From the IMG/VR virus record IMGVR_UViG_3300009285_000825, positions 1 to 21,336 of that record: a stretch of 21,336 bases of DNA; one strand, given 5' to 3'. A model generated the notes under the pieces. It made no database searches. It had not been told where the DNA came from and saw only the letters and a list, made by a program, of their open reading frames with translations. Shown here piece by piece: positions 2,700-11,238 of this stretch. The position numbers and the translations under genes were made by a program. Position 1 is the first letter of the stretch; the number at the start of each line of letters is the position of its first letter. This stretch comes from a virus.

Positions 2700-4126
2700 T
2701 ATCCCGGCAGGCCAAGCGCCCGCAGGCGTCTAGTCGCCTCCCCCCGGGTGATTTTCCCGGCCTGATAGTCGGCCTTGATCTGTTGCGCCTTGTTGAGATC
2801 AACGCCGCCCTGTTTTCCCACTTTCGCTTTTGGCGCCTCTGCCTTCGGCGCAACAGGCGCGCCCTCGGGCCGGCCCTCGCGCTCGTAAGGATCGCCTTTC
2901 TCGGTCGCCTTCAGCCAAGCCGTAACCCGCCCGGCGAATATGTGATCGAATGCCTTATTGTCCACCGGGAAACCGCCAGGTCCGGGAATCTTGCGTGTCA
3001 GTTTTTCCTGAATCTTCGGGTCGCTCGATTGTCCGCTCGGTCCGATCTTGTTGTTCTCAAGAAGCTCCACCGCCCTGTCGTAGGCCGCCTTCTCGCTCTT
3101 GAGTTTTTCGCGCGCCGCAGCCGTCAGTTCGTTGCCCTTCGCGGGCGCGCCGCCGACGACTTCCCAAATCAGGTTGCCGTCTTTGTCAGTGCCCTTGAAG
3201 CGCTGCTGGGTTGTGGTGCCGTCCTTGTTCTTGATCTCCTGAATTGCGCCAAGCGTCGGCAACCGATCAGGGCGCTCGGCCACGCGCGCAGCCGACTTTT
3301 GGCCCTCGCGTATCGCCTCGGTGGTTTTCAGGCCCAAATCGCCAAACCACGCCTCTTGGCGTTCGATCGTGCCCATCTCGTCTTTTGTGAAGATCGCCTC
3401 GCCGGTGTTCAGTTCGGCCAGATCGGCCAGCGTGAATCCGTCCTTGCCGACCTTTTTCAGCCGCTCGGAGACGATCCGCATTTTCTTCTGAATGTCCGGC
3501 AGGCGCTTCGTGTCCACGGTCTTATACATAGTTTTGGACAAAGAATCATCCTTGATCGCGCCCATCCAGCACGCCTGCTGATCCGGGGCGTTGCGGCAGG
3601 CCTTGAGGATCATCTGCTGCACGTCGGAATCCTTGACGATGGAAATCATGCCGTTCACGGCATCTTCGTACTCGGAACCCGCAGCCTCGAATAGCGGCGC
3701 GAACTGCGGCCCGACGGCCTTGCCGAGTTCGGTTGCAACCGCTTTTCGTTGGATGCTCCCTGGCGGGAGTTTGCGTAGGATGTTCATGCCCTTTTCCAGG
3801 GTGTTGATCGTCGTAATCAGGTCCTCGCGTGCCGACTTCTCCTGCGCCCGCCGGTTGGTGAGCAGCGTGTCGATCGGGTTGGGCCTGCCTTCGTAGCCAG
3901 CAGCAAACGACTGAAGCGCAAGGCCGATCTTCGCCCCTGTCGGCAGGCTGTCCAGGAAGTCCCTGTCGGATTGCGTGCGCGCGGCCGGCCCAGCGAAGCC
4001 CAAGGGGGCCGCCTGGTCCAAACCTTGGGGCCGCAGTTCGGGCTGTGCCGGCACTCCAAGACCGACATCCTCCATGATCGGGGGCAACTCGTCGCCGCTC
4101 ATTTCGTTGAATAGCCGCTGGACCAT
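2699..4126 (-). CDS. Putative internal virion protein, 475 aa
   Basis: A hydrophilic, mostly helical protein without a signal peptide or membrane segment. The N-terminus (about 1-60) is Pro-rich, the centre (about 90-330) is charged and probably helical with a pair of cysteines (CRNAPDQQAC), and the C-terminal 60 residues carry a Pro/Ala/Lys linker (APVAPKAEAPKAKVG) followed by a short basic helix (ITRGEATRRLRALGLPG). The last segment resembles small SHOCT-like helical tails, but this is only a resemblance. The start at 4126 has GGGAG six bases upstream and lies 14 bases after the preceding gene. The stop overlaps the start of the 899-codon gene, so the two are likely made in fixed ratio. I do not recognise the family; ejection or core protein is inferred from position between the tail genes and the large membrane-active protein. 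Confidence 0.7.
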   Translation of the reverse strand: MVQRLFNEMSGDELPPIMEDVGLGVPAQPELRPQGLDQAAPLGFAGPAARTQSDRDFLDSLPTGAKIGLALQSFAAGYEGRPNPIDTLLTNRRAQEKSAREDLITTINTLEKGMNILRKLPPGSIQRKAVATELGKAVGPQFAPLFEAAGSEYEDAVNGMISIVKDSDVQQMILKACRNAPDQQACWMGAIKDDSLSKTMYKTVDTKRLPDIQKKMRIVSERLKKVGKDGFTLADLAELNTGEAIFTKDEMGTIERQEAWFGDLGLKTTEAIREGQKSAARVAERPDRLPTLGAIQEIKNKDGTTTQQRFKGTDKDGNLIWEVVGGAPAKGNELTAAAREKLKSEKAAYDRAVELLENNKIGPSGQSSDPKIQEKLTRKIPGPGGFPVDNKAFDHIFAGRVTAWLKATEKGDPYEREGRPEGAPVAPKAEAPKAKVGKQGGVDLNKAQQIKADYQAGKITRGEATRRLRALGLPG

Positions 4127-6793: not shown

Positions 6794-7924
6794 CTAAGTC
6801 CATGCTGGTACGTAAAAAGTGGTCGTGTCAACGATGAAAGTAAGCCAGGAATTTGAAGTGTTGCTGCCGGGCTTGTCGTTACCAGGAAAGGTTGCTGTGG
6901 CTGCCCCTGCTACTGCACCGCCAGTCCAAGAATAAGTATGCGCCGCGCCGCCATTATTTGCTGTCGTAATGGGAACGATGTTTGCACTACCATTAAACGA
7001 CACCCCACCGATGTTACGGCCAGTTTGAAGCGTCGTTGCAGTAGTTGCATTGCCCGACAAAGCGCCAGTGAATGTCCCTGCTGTTACACCACCTAAAGTC
7101 CAAACGGCCTGCTGACCAGCGCCAGCAGTAACAATTACAGCCGCAGAACTCGTATTTCCTGTGGCGCTTAATGCTGCCCCAGTACCTAAAGTATTACTAA
7201 AACGACCTCCATCACCTGATCCAGTTGCAACACCTATAACGCCATTTCCAGTACCCGTAGCCCAAAATGATCCACCGTGATAGTTTGCTGTTGAAGGGAA
7301 CCCGTTGATAGCCGCCAGACCATTGCCGCCATCTACACCACCAGTAGCCTTAACGTAACCAGTGGTGTTAAATGTTCCACCGCCAACTATTGTTATATTT
7401 CCCCCCTGCGTAATCGTCACAGTTGGCGAGCCCGTTGGCCCTGCCGTGAACGCCGTCGCCCCAGAGGAAACAATCGTCGTGTTGCCGCCGCTCGTCGCGG
7501 TCATGGTCGTCGCGCCGAGCGTGAAGCCGCCAATAAAGCCTTCAACCGCTGTAATGAGGCCGGTTTCAGTATCGAGCGTAAAGGACGACGCGCCGGAGGA
7601 GTTGTAGCCAGCAATGCCCGCCGAACCAAAGACCACACCAGCCAAGCCGTTCATCCTCTTGAAAAGCGTCGCGCTGTTCATCTGGATGGATGCCGCCCGA
7701 GATTCCAGCGCCGCCCGCAATGGCGCGCTGATGTTCGCTGCGTTAGGTGAAGAAAGCGGGCCTCCTAGCGCTGCGGAGCCGTCCAGCAGCCCGGCGTTGA
7801 CCAGCTCGCCCACGGTCACGTAGCGGTCCAGCCCGGCCCCAGCGCGGCCATAGTTGGCCCCCGGCGGTCCCGACAGGTTCGGCATCCCCGGTGGGGTGAA
7901 GCCGCGTTTTGGGTCCCAGGTCAA
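6794..7924 (-). CDS. Tail fibre protein, 376 aa, mosaic
   Basis: The N-terminal ~160 residues, including a Pro/Gly-rich start (MTWDPKRGFTPPGMPNLSGP), probably attach to the tail. The C-terminal ~215 residues are Gly/Thr/Ala/Asn-rich repeats of short beta strands typical of trimeric fibres. The segment LSGNATTATTLQTGRNIGGV followed by SFNGSANI matches the repeat common in T4- and lambda-type tail fibres. The start codon is TTG at 7924, overlapping the TGA of the beta-propeller gene, with GGAG about eight bases upstream; the next in-frame ATG is at codon 14. GC content falls in the C-terminal half (bases 6800-7440; for example 28 of 60 at 7141-7200), consistent with replacement of the receptor-binding part. 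No chaperone domain is seen at the C-terminus. Confidence 0.8.
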   Translation of the reverse strand: MTWDPKRGFTPPGMPNLSGPPGANYGRAGAGLDRYVTVGELVNAGLLDGSAALGGPLSSPNAANISAPLRAALESRAASIQMNSATLFKRMNGLAGVVFGSAGIAGYNSSGASSFTLDTETGLITAVEGFIGGFTLGATTMTATSGGNTTIVSSGATAFTAGPTGSPTVTITQGGNITIVGGGTFNTTGYVKATGGVDGGNGLAAINGFPSTANYHGGSFWATGTGNGVIGVATGSGDGGRFSNTLGTGAALSATGNTSSAAVIVTAGAGQQAVWTLGGVTAGTFTGALSGNATTATTLQTGRNIGGVSFNGSANIVPITTANNGGAAHTYSWTGGAVAGAATATFPGNDKPGSNTSNSWLTFIVDTTTFYVPAWT

Positions 7925-9459
7925 AGCGTTGACTCCATCGAGATCGAACCGGCCTTCACCGCCGCCTGGAAGGAATGCACCTCCATGTCCTGGGAGGCCC
8001 CGGCCTGCGAGAATTCGTACTGAACCTGCCTGAATTCGCCGCTTGTCTCGGTTTCAAGAAACTTGTCGATAAACTTGGTGTCCGACGTGCCCTGGGTTGC
8101 GGTCGCCGTCTGCTGCGTGTTGCCGTCGCGCTTCCAGCCGAAGGTGAGGGTATAGACCCCCTTGGGCACGATCTTGGCCGCCACCCATTCGATGGTCTTG
8201 GTCAGGCTCCCATCGCCGTAATGCGTGAAAGGCATGGTCGCGGTCGCGGTATAGGCCCCCGAGGTATCGATCGAGCGATCCGCTGCATTTGTCTTACGCA
8301 CGAAACCGTCCGCGCCGCCTGCGAAAATCTTGCGCTTGTTCGAGTCCGCCGGGTCGATGACGCTGGCGAGGCAAGAGCAGTTGTACGCCGTCCAGCGCGC
8401 CCAGAACAGTTGATCGCGCGAGAAGTCCATCATCAGGATGGTGTCCGGGAAGTTTGTGGTCGTCGGGATCGCAAACAGCGCGAGCGAGCGTTCCTTGTCC
8501 ACCGCCGCCCAGCTTCGCCGGATGTGGGTGTAGTTCATGTTCGCGCGAATCCACTTGTGGATCGGGCGCGAAAGCGCGGCGTCCTCTAGCGCGCCGAAAT
8601 TCAACGAATAGGCCAGGCTGCGGATGCTGCCGTCGGACCACATGAACCCGACATCGCCCCGGTACTTGAAGATCGTGTTCTGCCAGACGCAGCCGATGCC
8701 GCTCACCAGCCGGCGCAGCGAAAAAGCGTCCGAGCCAGTGGGCGATGATCCGGTCAAGATGTGGATCGAGCCGAAGTACGGTCCCTTGAAGATGTAGAGT
8801 TCGTCGCCGTGGGATACCAAGCCGGTGATCCGGTCGCCGTCATTCACCGCGACGCTGATGCTGCCGGAGGTTCCGGTGCCGTTCCACTGCGCGGCGTTGT
8901 TGGAACTGCTGTAGTACAGGGTTGATTGGTTGGAAGTCACCCCGGCGGCCCAGACGCGGTTTTTGTGCTCGGCGCTGAAGGAAAAGGCCGGAGGCGAGCC
9001 GCCCAGGGCCGCGCAGGTCGTGCCATTGTAGGTCTGCACCGCGTCCCCGGCATCGCTCGACATGATGACCGAGCCGCCGAAGGACGTGTAGCACGGAATC
9101 GCGTTGTCGGTCAGGCCGGTCTGAATGTTGGCAAAGGTGCCATCGGCTGCATCGGCCATGATGACCGTGCTCAGATGGACGATGCGCTGTTGCGTGCCGG
9201 TGCCTGCGGCGCCCATGACCCAATAATCGTACAGGCCCATGATCTCGGCACCCGAGGCGAGCGCGGAGCTGTTCAGTTTGGTCGTTCCGCCGATCTTGTG
9301 CGGGCCGCCGTCGGGCTCGAAAAAGACATTGGTCGCCGCCGTCAGGTAGGGAAACACCAAGTTGCCGCCCTGATCCGGGCCAACCGCGGTCGTGTCGCCT
9401 ACGTCGGAGACCCAGCCCCCGGCGAAGCTGTGGTTGATCGTGGTTTGCCGGCTTGCCAT
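7921..9459 (-). CDS. Beta-propeller tail protein (stabilisation/hub type), 512 aa
   Basis: A long beta-rich protein with repeated blade-like strands containing aromatic residues (MGLYDYWVMG, FSAEHKNRVWAAGV, STLYYSSSNNAAQW, VGFMWSDGSIRSLAYS, DQLFWARWTAYN) spaced as in a propeller. The start MASRQTTINHSFAGGWVSDV is like that of podovirus proteins that cap the adaptor and close the portal channel (a place filled by P22 gp10 or T7 gp12). It follows the adaptor gene after eight bases and overlaps the fibre gene by four, which is the order known in such phages. The SD is weak (GTGAGCG directly before ATG), so coupling to the adaptor gene is likely. Fold and neighbourhood agree; the precise family is not proven. 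Confidence 0.7.
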   Translation of the reverse strand: MASRQTTINHSFAGGWVSDVGDTTAVGPDQGGNLVFPYLTAATNVFFEPDGGPHKIGGTTKLNSSALASGAEIMGLYDYWVMGAAGTGTQQRIVHLSTVIMADAADGTFANIQTGLTDNAIPCYTSFGGSVIMSSDAGDAVQTYNGTTCAALGGSPPAFSFSAEHKNRVWAAGVTSNQSTLYYSSSNNAAQWNGTGTSGSISVAVNDGDRITGLVSHGDELYIFKGPYFGSIHILTGSSPTGSDAFSLRRLVSGIGCVWQNTIFKYRGDVGFMWSDGSIRSLAYSLNFGALEDAALSRPIHKWIRANMNYTHIRRSWAAVDKERSLALFAIPTTTNFPDTILMMDFSRDQLFWARWTAYNCSCLASVIDPADSNKRKIFAGGADGFVRKTNAADRSIDTSGAYTATATMPFTHYGDGSLTKTIEWVAAKIVPKGVYTLTFGWKRDGNTQQTATATQGTSDTKFIDKFLETETSGEFRQVQYEFSQAGASQDMEVHSFQAAVKAGSISMESTL

Positions 9460-9467
9460 CGCTCACG

Positions 9468-10493
9468 TCAATCTTCGAGCCGGTCAAATCGACCATTGAT
9501 ATCGTAGCGCCGCCCGCCGCCGCCGCGCGAGTATGGCCTGCGCGCCGCCCGCACATAACTGGTGATGCGCGGCTCCAGTTTCGGGCGCACGCCGCCGACT
9601 TCTGTATCCATGATGATCCGGCTCATGATGTCGGTGTACTCCCCGGCGGCTTCTTGCGAGCGCCCGTCGTCCTTCTTGTCCCGGTAGAACATCGCCAGGG
9701 CTTTGTAGAAGATCGCCGCACGATACCGCAGCGGCACGATCGGCTCGTCGCTGTTGGCAGCCAGGTTGGCTTGCGCCGTACCGGCACTGTCCGTCGCCAG
9801 CATCGAAGTGATGTAGGCATACGGAATCTGCATGAAGGCGTTGGGCGGCGAGGCGAAACGCACGCGGCGGATCGGCGTGGTGTTCGCCGAAGGCGCATAA
9901 TCGAGCAGGCAGGCCACCGTAGGCCGCCCGGTCACGTCGTTGGTCGGAAACCGCCTGCGGAACTCCGTGCGTGAAATCACCGGGATATTCAGCACGTCGG
10001 AGAACTGCTGCAAGTCCACCAGCCGCAGGAAGTCCGAGGCAAGCGCGTACTCGTCCTCGAAGTAGGTGTAGGTTTCGGCGGCCAGCGCCGTTTCGGTGAA
10101 TTTGACCGTCAGCACGATGGTCGTATCGTCGCTGACCGAGGATACCGTGTATGGCGTGCGCGAACCGGCGAATACGATCTTGCCGTTCGCCCTCGCGTTC
10201 TTCACGCTGAAACTGTTGTCCGTGTTCCAGAGCGTGCTCGCTCCGGTGACGGTCGTACTGCCCTGTGTGGTCGTGACCGTGCCGGTGGTGTAGGGAACCT
10301 GAGTGATGAGGACTCCGCGCCGCTCGGCCCAGGGCAGCTTGTAATCTAGGCCAAGGTGCATGTCATAGAGCGCCATGTTGACGGCGCGCTTGGCCTGGCT
10401 CACGGTCGCCGTGCCGGAGGTATCTCCGCGCACCGAGTTGATGAGCAGCGTGTACAAGTCGGAAAAATCTCTGGGTTGTTCGGTGACGGCCAT
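9468..10493 (-). CDS. Head-to-tail adaptor (neck) protein, 341 aa
   Basis: An N-terminal helical part (MAVTEQPRDFSDLYTLLINS, then VSQAKRAVNMALYDMHLGLD) is interrupted by an Ig-like beta insert with the familiar pattern TGTVTTTQGSTTVTGASTLW, YTVSSVSDDTTIVLTVKF and YTYFEDEYALASDFLRLVDL. It then returns to helices (RYRAAIFYKALAMFYRDKKD) and ends in a basic Gly/Arg tail. This layout is typical of adaptor proteins that bind below the portal in podoviruses. GGAGG seven bases before the ATG is a strong SD, and the ATG overlaps the stop of the 56-residue membrane-protein gene (TAATG). Its location directly before the beta-propeller gene supports the role. Confidence 0.75.
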   Translation of the reverse strand: MAVTEQPRDFSDLYTLLINSVRGDTSGTATVSQAKRAVNMALYDMHLGLDYKLPWAERRGVLITQVPYTTGTVTTTQGSTTVTGASTLWNTDNSFSVKNARANGKIVFAGSRTPYTVSSVSDDTTIVLTVKFTETALAAETYTYFEDEYALASDFLRLVDLQQFSDVLNIPVISRTEFRRRFPTNDVTGRPTVACLLDYAPSANTTPIRRVRFASPPNAFMQIPYAYITSMLATDSAGTAQANLAANSDEPIVPLRYRAAIFYKALAMFYRDKKDDGRSQEAAGEYTDIMSRIIMDTEVGGVRPKLEPRITSYVRAARRPYSRGGGGRRYDINGRFDRLED

Positions 10494-10663
10494 TATTTAA
10501 CCTCCAAGTGCCGATCAAGGCGCGAGCGGTCGGTGTCTTGCACGCGTTCCATGCGATCAATGCGAAAATGTATATTCCGCAGATCAGCGCGAATTGCTCC
10601 CCAAATGGCCGCGCCTGCGATCAGTTGTCCGAGGATAAAGAGCAGCAGGTTGTTCAGTTCCAT
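10493..10663 (-). CDS. Small one-pass membrane protein, 56 aa
   Basis: A 56-residue frame with a single N-terminal transmembrane segment (LLLFILGQLIAGAAIWGAI) followed by a charged amphipathic helix (RNIHFRIDRMERVQDTDRSR). An upstream AGGA overlaps the stop of the lipoprotein gene (TAGGA), and its own stop overlaps the adaptor start (TAATG). Such short membrane proteins with cytoplasmic coiled-coil tails are frequent in phage lysis or tail regions (holin-like, XhlA-like). A holin role is possible but only one membrane span is seen and no endolysin is in the window, so I leave function open. Confidence 0.65.
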   Translation of the reverse strand: MELNNLLLFILGQLIAGAAIWGAIRADLRNIHFRIDRMERVQDTDRSRLDRHLEVK

Positions 10664-10675
10664 GTTGTTGCGTTC

Positions 10676-10975
10676 CTATGCGTGCTTGCACCCAAATGCG
10701 TGCTTTACTTCGTGCCCCAGAATCACGTCGCTCATCTTGGCCGGCGACTCCGCGTACAAAACGCAGGACGTGGCCCCCGCATACGGCTCGTAGCAGGAAA
10801 TGCAGGCGCCGCCGCGATCCAGCGTCGTCGCGCCCCGTTCCTCGCAAGTTGCCTTGGGGTCGGCAACGCGCACCCAGGTAATCGTGCTGGTCTGAACCTC
10901 GCGCGAGCAGTCCATCGGCGTCCAGTCTCCGCACCCGGCGAGCGTCAGAGCGAGGATAGCGGCTGCTCTTTCCAT
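10676..10975 (-). CDS. Putative lipoprotein with C-terminal metzincin-type zinc motif, 99 aa
   Basis: The N-terminus MERAAAILALTLAGC is a short lipoprotein signal with lipobox L-A-G-C (Cys15). The mature protein is only about 85 residues and has six further cysteines (23, 44, 58, 61, 71, 96), so disulfides are likely in the periplasm. The last dozen residues are HEVKHAFGCKH plus Ala: His88, Glu89, His92, Gly95 and His98 fit HExxHxxGxxH, the metzincin zinc-binding signature. The chain stops right after the third histidine, so the Met-turn and the rest of a metzincin domain are absent. The gene overlaps the preceding one by 31 bases and has a weak SD. Next to a small membrane protein, a role at the outer membrane (lysis, envelope modification or superinfection) is conceivable but unproven. 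Confidence 0.65.
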   Translation of the reverse strand: MERAAAILALTLAGCGDWTPMDCSREVQTSTITWVRVADPKATCEERGATTLDRGGACISCYEPYAGATSCVLYAESPAKMSDVILGHEVKHAFGCKHA

Positions 10976-11238
10976 TCCAGCACCTGTGCGATCTCGTCCT
11001 TGACGAGTACGTTCCGGCAGCGCTCATCGACGCCGATGTGCCAGTTCGTTCCGACTGGCTTGCCATCCTTGTCCGTGTCCTGATAAGGAATCGCCCACCG
11101 CGCCGTCCCGGCCTTGCCCGCCGAGAAAATATAGAGCGCTACACTCTCCGCGTAAAGCGGGCTATCAGCGATCAGTGCGACGTGAATCTTGTCGGCGCGG
11201 GCCTGTGCGTCAGCTTTGCTTGCAAATGTCAGTTTCAT
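10945..11238 (-). CDS. Small conserved-looking phage protein, 97 aa
   Basis: A soluble alpha/beta protein, MKLTFASKADAQARADKIHV at the start, with RWAIPYQDTDKDGKPVGTNW in the middle and a charged C-terminus. It has one cysteine and no membrane segment. The ATG overlaps the stop of the lectin-like gene (ATGA). The SD is weak, so coupling probably drives translation. I recall similar short proteins next to phage tail-fibre genes, but I cannot name a function. Its 3' end overlaps the lipoprotein gene by 31 bases. Confidence 0.6.
   Translation of the reverse strand: MKLTFASKADAQARADKIHVALIADSPLYAESVALYIFSAGKAGTARWAIPYQDTDKDGKPVGTNWHIGVDERCRNVLVKDEIAQVLEWKEQPLSSL

Follow-up and report, generated by a model that had tools for sequence, protein, structure and literature searches.

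Very small zincins have a described precedent in Acel_2062, a mini-zincin with the motif HExxHxxGxxD near its C-terminus and no Met-turn, whose C-terminal Tyr possibly takes over the job of the Met-turn Met (PMC3890501). Here, we compare with it the product of a small gene in a virus contig of 21,336 bases (the window, by which we mean this whole stretch of DNA), which is probably a disulfide-stapled, mini-zincin-type envelope zinc protein and a putative hydrolase. Acel_2062 (MEROPS M94) and the family to which the window protein belongs would share a single small zincin domain, HExxH near the C-terminus, a Gly before the third ligand and the absence of a Met-turn. Most relatives also have an aromatic residue before the last His, a possible parallel to the C-terminal Tyr of Acel_2062. 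They differ in the third ligand, which is Asp in Acel_2062 and His in the family. Unlike the M94 mini-zincin, the family is also exported and cysteine-rich, and the M94 Pfam profile was matched neither by the window protein nor by the relatives scanned. In the window protein, the place of the motif and the missing Met-turn fit a mini-zincin; for the fold, the comparison runs via weak structural matches. A preliminary description of this DNA had pointed out a tiny envelope protein with a zinc-type motif, and this is borne out by the sequence. Its remark that the protein lies far below known sizes was overstated, since the mini-zincin described in PMC3890501 means that the size is not exceptional in kind.

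YbeY (UPF0054) has a similar three-His motif, HxxxHxxGxxH (H114, H118, and H124 in Escherichia coli). Unlike the family, it is annotated as an endoribonuclease, has no Glu after the first His and continues with further residues past the motif; no YbeY sequence match was found in a PDB sequence-profile search. Metzincins resemble the window protein and the Xanthomonas phage Rb1 member in HExxHxxGxxH, but only by spacing, and in contrast to them the family has neither a Met-turn nor a lower domain and most commonly carries a motif that is one residue longer. No metzincin Pfam profile was matched by the window protein or by 19 relatives scanned at E ≤ 1. The initial assignment of the motif as metzincin type was therefore given up: with the longer commonest motif, no Met-turn and no Pfam peptidase match, the window protein is not a metzincin. 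On the same three grounds, we find it hardly credible that the protein is a genuine metzincin reduced to the active-site helix, even though the window and Rb1 sequences both fit HExxHxxGxxH exactly, which would speak for it.

A lipoprotein gene on the minus strand

The open reading frame (ORF) runs on the minus strand from 10975 to 10676 and comprises 99 codons with an ATG start; the plus-strand translation of the same interval is unrelated. The gene and its surroundings contain the following features.

10676..10975, minus strand: gene for a 99-residue putative minimal zincin-type lipoprotein (ORF and family profile, E 1.2e-10), with its stop codon at 10676-10678
10931..10975, minus strand: signal peptide and lipobox, residues 1 to 15 (MERAAAILALTLAGC), with Cys15 as the predicted lipidated residue (from sequence)
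10682..10714, minus strand: putative metal motif H88-E89-x-x-H92-x-x-G95-x-x-H98 (from sequence; H88 to H92 on a predicted helix, residues 83-93)
10981..10985, minus strand: AGGTG, resembling a ribosome-binding site, ahead of the ATG (sequence only)
10945..11238, minus strand: upstream ORF of 97 residues that shares 31 bases with the start of the gene (matching no family)
10493..10663, minus strand: downstream ORF of 56 residues that contains a single hydrophobic stretch (no family clearly matched)
9468..10493, minus strand: downstream gene for a 341-residue tail-type protein (weak PHROG tail matches)

The protein ends on GHEVKHAFGCKHA-stop. Its last residues, H88-E-V-K-H92-A-F-G95-C-K-H98-A, contain an exact HExxHxxGxxH followed by a single residue after H98, and the minus-strand sequence thereby confirmed the ending that had been noticed beforehand. 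The description as a lipoprotein with 85 mature residues and six extra cysteines likewise proved correct: the lipobox LTLAGC with Cys15 leaves a mature part of this length, in which further cysteines occupy positions 23, 44, 58, 61, 71, and 96. Judged from these features, export of the protein is very likely.

HExxH occurred twice in the six frames of the window, near chance expectation (60 Markov copies averaged 1.45), and the full HExxHxxGxxH occurred once, compared to none in the 60 copies. When 497 six-frame segments were searched by hmmsearch with a family profile built from 48 relatives, the ORF was retrieved at E 1.2e-10, and the next best segment at 0.19. Sequence comparison thus identifies 10676-10975 as a real gene because of its homology to relatives, HExxH alone being not rare.

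A capsid gene and tail genes were recognizable by profile on the contig. The lipoprotein gene is separated by 12 bases from the 56-residue ORF, which is followed by the 341-residue gene, all on the same strand. We found 24 relatives of this tail gene and inspected the upstream region of 23; none of the 23 carried the lipoprotein, so the slot beside the tail gene is variable. In four tail-gene relatives (L099, at 2426-2957, and also L100 to L102), the slot is occupied by a small ORF of hydrophobic character, together with two overlapping ORFs that resemble an inner and an outer spanin (75 residues and an 86-residue lipoprotein, respectively) and gave no Pfam match. Another protein of the window's tail region (512 residues; 7921-9459, minus strand) matched phrog_5107, "amidase," over residues 123-457 (E 7e-23), a name that could mislead in the case of a tail protein.

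An unnamed family of small exported proteins in phages and bacteria

Used directly as a query, the window protein retrieved little: none of four candidates from a related-locus search was confirmed, tblastn of phages gave no match, and nothing rose above noise in Pfam and PHROGs. Relatives were therefore obtained mainly via degenerate motif patterns and not by whole-protein searches. The first pattern, GHEVxHCFxGx followed by a TRB codon, yielded 79 stretches in IMG/VR, all of which contained a similar small ORF with the C-terminal motif (two were cut by the end of the contig or locus). Profile alignment of the window ORF with these relatives covers its helix and strands together with Cys44, Cys71, and the motif, and in pairwise comparison it matched gene 29 of phage Rb1 at E 4e-7 and one of the environmental relatives (L011) at E 1e-7. 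Allowing other residues in place of Val gave at least 120 stretches in IMG/VR and 93 distinct segments among the matches listed, nearly all of them family members by eye. In total, at least ∼200 phage contigs carried a family gene. In genomes, the GHEVxHCFxGx-type motif was found in 57 stretches, mainly from Limnohabitans and other Comamonadaceae as judged from the record titles; 53 were assigned to the family by eye, and L116, L123, L141, and L152 were rejected.

Eight of eight family members tested matched phrog_27783 (88 positions; unknown function, none being given by PHROGs) with E values of 4e-7 to 0.02, and this PHROG is also family-like in length and in its C-terminal motif region. The window protein itself gave no phrog_27783 match, nor was there one when phrog_27783 was searched against the window's own record. 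Neither the window protein nor the relatives tested reached any curated Pfam or NCBIfam cutoff, and a literature search retrieved no paper on GHEVRHCF or on phrog_27783. With relatives as queries, tblastn of phages returned no match for two queries and a few weak or moderate matches for others. Four named-phage relatives emerged from these whole-protein searches.

A lipobox-like motif was present in 27/132 phage and 37/51 bacterial pattern matches (among the matches listed), and those without one mostly had a plain hydrophobic N-terminus by eye. Entries with fewer than 60 residues before the motif (183-sequence count) and others without a suitable start codon were left out; L037 and L046 are absent from A3/A5. 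With its significant profile match across the mature domain, its export signal, and the conserved Cys44, Cys61, and Cys71 of the phrog_27783-type family, the window protein almost certainly belongs to this unnamed family of small exported proteins, which is common to hundreds of phage contigs and to Limnohabitans chromosomes.

Conservation and spacing of the C-terminal motif

The search patterns themselves demanded GHE, HCF, and the later Gly, whose constancy among pattern matches is given by construction; free observations are limited to the third His, the length of the tail, and the upstream cysteines. Among the matches listed, the third His was present in 181 of 183 distinct pattern matches, and 167/183 ended no more than 5 residues past it. 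The two without a third His at this position were L063, with a His two residues further on, and L141, a chance match. The motif and the near-immediate stop are thus conserved in homologues. The suggestion that the protein might be a fragment that keeps the motif was not sustained, its relatives being of the same length. In individual relatives, an insert precedes the motif helix (L005), or C-terminal extensions reach ∼17 to 24 residues past the last His (L105, L144, and L192).

The commonest family motif, HExxHCFxGxxH, is one residue longer than that of metzincins. Whereas the majority form reads HCFxGx(W/F/Y)H with a Cys after the second His, the window protein has HAFGCKH. Both the lack of the family Cys beside the second His and the motif shorter by one residue count against reading the window protein as a zincin. 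In Rb1, the corresponding stretch is HCFGARH, i.e., the spacing is short but the Cys is kept. Gene 29 of this phage encodes a lipoprotein of 112 residues that ends on GHEAWHCFGARHN-stop, with the same spacing and the same one-residue tail as in the window. The pattern GHEVxHxFGxxH found 0 loci, and we considered whether the window alone has this spacing and whether the short form might be an artifact; this was refuted by Rb1 gene 29 (GHEAWHCFGARH), which the pattern had missed because it demanded Val. Since its spacing is identical, the short form is natural, and by sequence the window and Rb1 proteins constitute a short-spacing subtype of the family.

We also rejected a deletion arising from a direct repeat of 9 bases within the last codons; the window holds 11 such repeats against a Markov average of 3.15, and the gene holds 2. 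Forms of the same spacing with another residue for Cys (codons not starting with T) were found at 0 loci, and among the 15 loci matching GHExxHAFG, no family member was seen by eye. One of these 15 is a different phage ORF (L303, 12335-12739) of 134 residues, with no signal peptide by eye, that also ends on a metzincin motif (GHELGHAFGMKHT-stop) and weakly matched Peptidase_M66 (E 3e-4, just under the cutoff) and reprolysins in Pfam.

Cysteines and candidate disulfides

Cysteines were counted in an alignment of 74 proteins, in which Cys34, Cys53, and Cys61 of the L059 query correspond to Cys44, Cys61, and Cys71 of the window protein. Four positions are of particular relevance.

10844..10846, minus strand: Cys44, a family Cys, first putative disulfide with partner Cys61 (co-loss)
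10793..10795, minus strand: Cys61, putative partner of Cys44 (co-loss)
10763..10765, minus strand: Cys71, a family Cys on the strand before the motif helix (in 73/74 rows)
10688..10690, minus strand: Cys96, which may take the role of the family Cys that adjoins the second motif His, where this protein has Ala93

The residues corresponding to Cys44 and Cys61 were both present in 70 of the 74 rows and both absent in the other 4, and were never lost singly. The Cys after the second His, which was imposed by the patterns, occurred in 73/74 rows, with the window protein as the sole exception. This joint loss and retention suggests two disulfides in the family proteins. In the relatives, the counterpart of Cys71 would be bonded to the Cys that follows the second motif His; in the window protein, Cys71 would be bonded to Cys96, which may stand in for the absent family Cys. 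A third disulfide of the window protein could be formed by Cys23 and Cys58.

Predicted fold and structural matches

AlphaFold2 modeled the window protein (74 sequences) with a pLDDT of 75.5 and a pTM of 0.58 and placed the motif on the helix at residues 83-93. A canonical mature member was modeled at a pLDDT of 89.2 and a pTM of 0.79, with predicted strands at 21-27, 52-57, and 60-66 and helices at 30-40 and 71-83, the latter bearing the motif. Foldseek against the PDB gave no match at E ≤ 0.001 for either model, and the PDB sequence-profile search returned nothing below E 0.27. The best VIA rows were VOC/glyoxalase half-folds (Z 3.4 and 4.0); the highest Z scores, 4.0 and 3.8, also came from VOC half-folds and covered residues 18-72 and 18-70, respectively. 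We read these matches as the common beta-alpha-beta-beta arrangement in the models. The zinc hydrolases of the YbeY type (1xm5 and 7y7o) aligned weakly over the greater part of the chain and through the motif (66 and 69 residues; Z 3.3 and 3.2); the offset at the end of the 1xm5 alignment (model residue 85, chain position 3123 read as residue 123) would put H76/H80 on YbeY H114/H118. SPRTN was matched at Z 2.4. BFVD contained one clear relative (60% identity, E 2.6e-12), followed by weak matches that included proteins named IrrE and SprT-like. The absence of Acel_2062 (3E11) among the structural matches listed bears on nothing either way. Overall, the structural matches of these models are weak and are consistent with, but no proof of, a minimal zincin-like core.

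Bacterial copies and motif-less paralogues

Matches were present in 32 of 60 genomes of the GTDB genus that contains Limnohabitans parvus II-B4 (the genome of L110, G001), compared to 3 of 200 in its family. One site that recurs in the bacteria adjoins genes whose products we named, from reading their sequences, as a short-chain dehydrogenase and a Tex-like S1 protein. A total of 26 matches stopped before the end of the motif (query_to 78 or less), and in 20 of them a full match was located within ∼600 bases. Tandem pairs of motif-bearing and motif-less copies were present in Limnohabitans and in a Hydrogenophaga genome (L295 to L299, regions of G001 to G004). In all six motif-less copies that were read (five neighbors and one solitary), HExxH was gone and the Cys after the second His position was kept; the corresponding stretches read GHLLLHC, GRLFLLC, GHLFILC, GHLVRFC, GILFSAC, and ANAVRGC. 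Since these copies keep the Cys and lose the metal residues, the structural Cys is separable from the metal residues, and the sequences of the bacterial pair suggest an enzyme with an inactive partner.

Relatives without the histidines or the glutamate, which had been named beforehand as evidence against a zinc protein, were encountered only as these Comamonadaceae paralogues. All four phage relatives found by tblastn keep HExxH and the third His. The persistence of motif-less paralogues implies that the fold is useful without the motif, and it is one of the points in favor of a noncatalytic zinc-binding lipoprotein, for example one that buffers metal or a surface lipoprotein of the exclusion type in which the site only stabilizes the fold. 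The very small size of the protein and the fact that the Glu was fixed by the search patterns point in the same direction. However, the Glu is kept in the four named-phage relatives, which were found without a pattern, and a purely structural site needs no Glu. We consider a noncatalytic protein of this kind possible but rather unlikely.

Proposed function of the window protein

Our preferred interpretation, which we favor on balance, is that the window protein belongs to a family, so far undescribed, of very small zinc proteins of the zincin type that are exported, and that it acts on the envelope by means of Glu89. The protein would be exported and lipidated at Cys15, and its 85-residue mature part would adopt a beta-alpha-beta-beta-alpha fold with two or three disulfides. 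The last helix would present His88, Glu89, and His92, and His98 just after the helix would complete a three-His C-terminal zinc site, with Glu89 acting as the general base. During phage production, it would attack a peptide or protein in the envelope of the host, either in the periplasm or in the outer membrane. In this scheme, we infer zinc, hydrolysis, the substrate, and the benefit to the phage. The predicted metal site at the motif is likely, the putative hydrolase activity is reasonably plausible, and the particular role is doubtful. Against a peptidase stands the fact that no Pfam or NCBIfam family supports such an activity. A broader reading, which we find conceivable though unlikely, takes the family as disulfide-stapled exported zinc peptidases of ∼85 residues, among the smallest zincins and common to phages and Limnohabitans; the bacterial enzyme would pair with its adjacent inactive paralogue, and the phages would edit a host envelope protein.

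If the site binds zinc and cuts, the family would rank among the smallest zincin scaffolds: it would lack a Met-turn, occur naturally with two motif spacings, and have a disulfide where a lower domain would otherwise be. It would also be a tool that phages direct at the cell envelope and that many environmental phages encode under the name "hypothetical protein." The effect of the motif could be judged against the linked motif-less paralogues, which are a natural control.

Phage settings and a possible role in lysis

In Rb1, the family gene lies between the tail-fiber region and a gene for a "capsid assembly protein." In Alteromonas phage PT11-V22, gp25 is located between a tail protein and a tail fiber; its assignment rests on the lipobox and the HELMHCLYGNYHK end, because the tblastn E value was only 2. 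In phage C48C1, two family copies are surrounded by genes that have no assignment, and one copy lies close to tRNAs. In a survey of neighbors (40 of 65 nonredundant phage loci, 150 of 248 neighbor proteins), the neighbors varied widely, and no single function dominated. Radical SAM families led with 9 to 10 members, and several endolysin and head-protease families had 2 to 3 each. Ten neighbors were scanned singly; one was a major tail protein (L193), and the others revealed nothing telling.

These settings bear on a lysis protein, either an outer-membrane spanin or a protease that weakens the envelope at lysis, which we regard as improbable. The product is a lipoprotein and its gene adjoins the 56-residue ORF with the hydrophobic stretch, the same slot holds spanin-like genes in tail-gene relatives L099 to L102, and endolysin families occur among the neighbors, with no listed family exceeding 3 members across the 150 neighbor proteins. 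Yet, most neighbors are not recognized lysis genes, and no endolysin was recognized among the window ORFs tested (the 512-residue protein with the "amidase" match sits in the tail region). Moreover, the annotated endolysin and outer-membrane spanin of Rb1 are encoded ∼17 kb away from the family gene. A role as a spanin is unlikely because Rb1 has separate spanin genes.

In several phages, the family gene is accompanied by a gene for a 72-residue IF-1 homologue. One example, at 1623-1841 of L006 (Pfam eIF-1a, E 2e-19), lies behind a 60-residue ORF that is weakly similar to MazE/AbrB.
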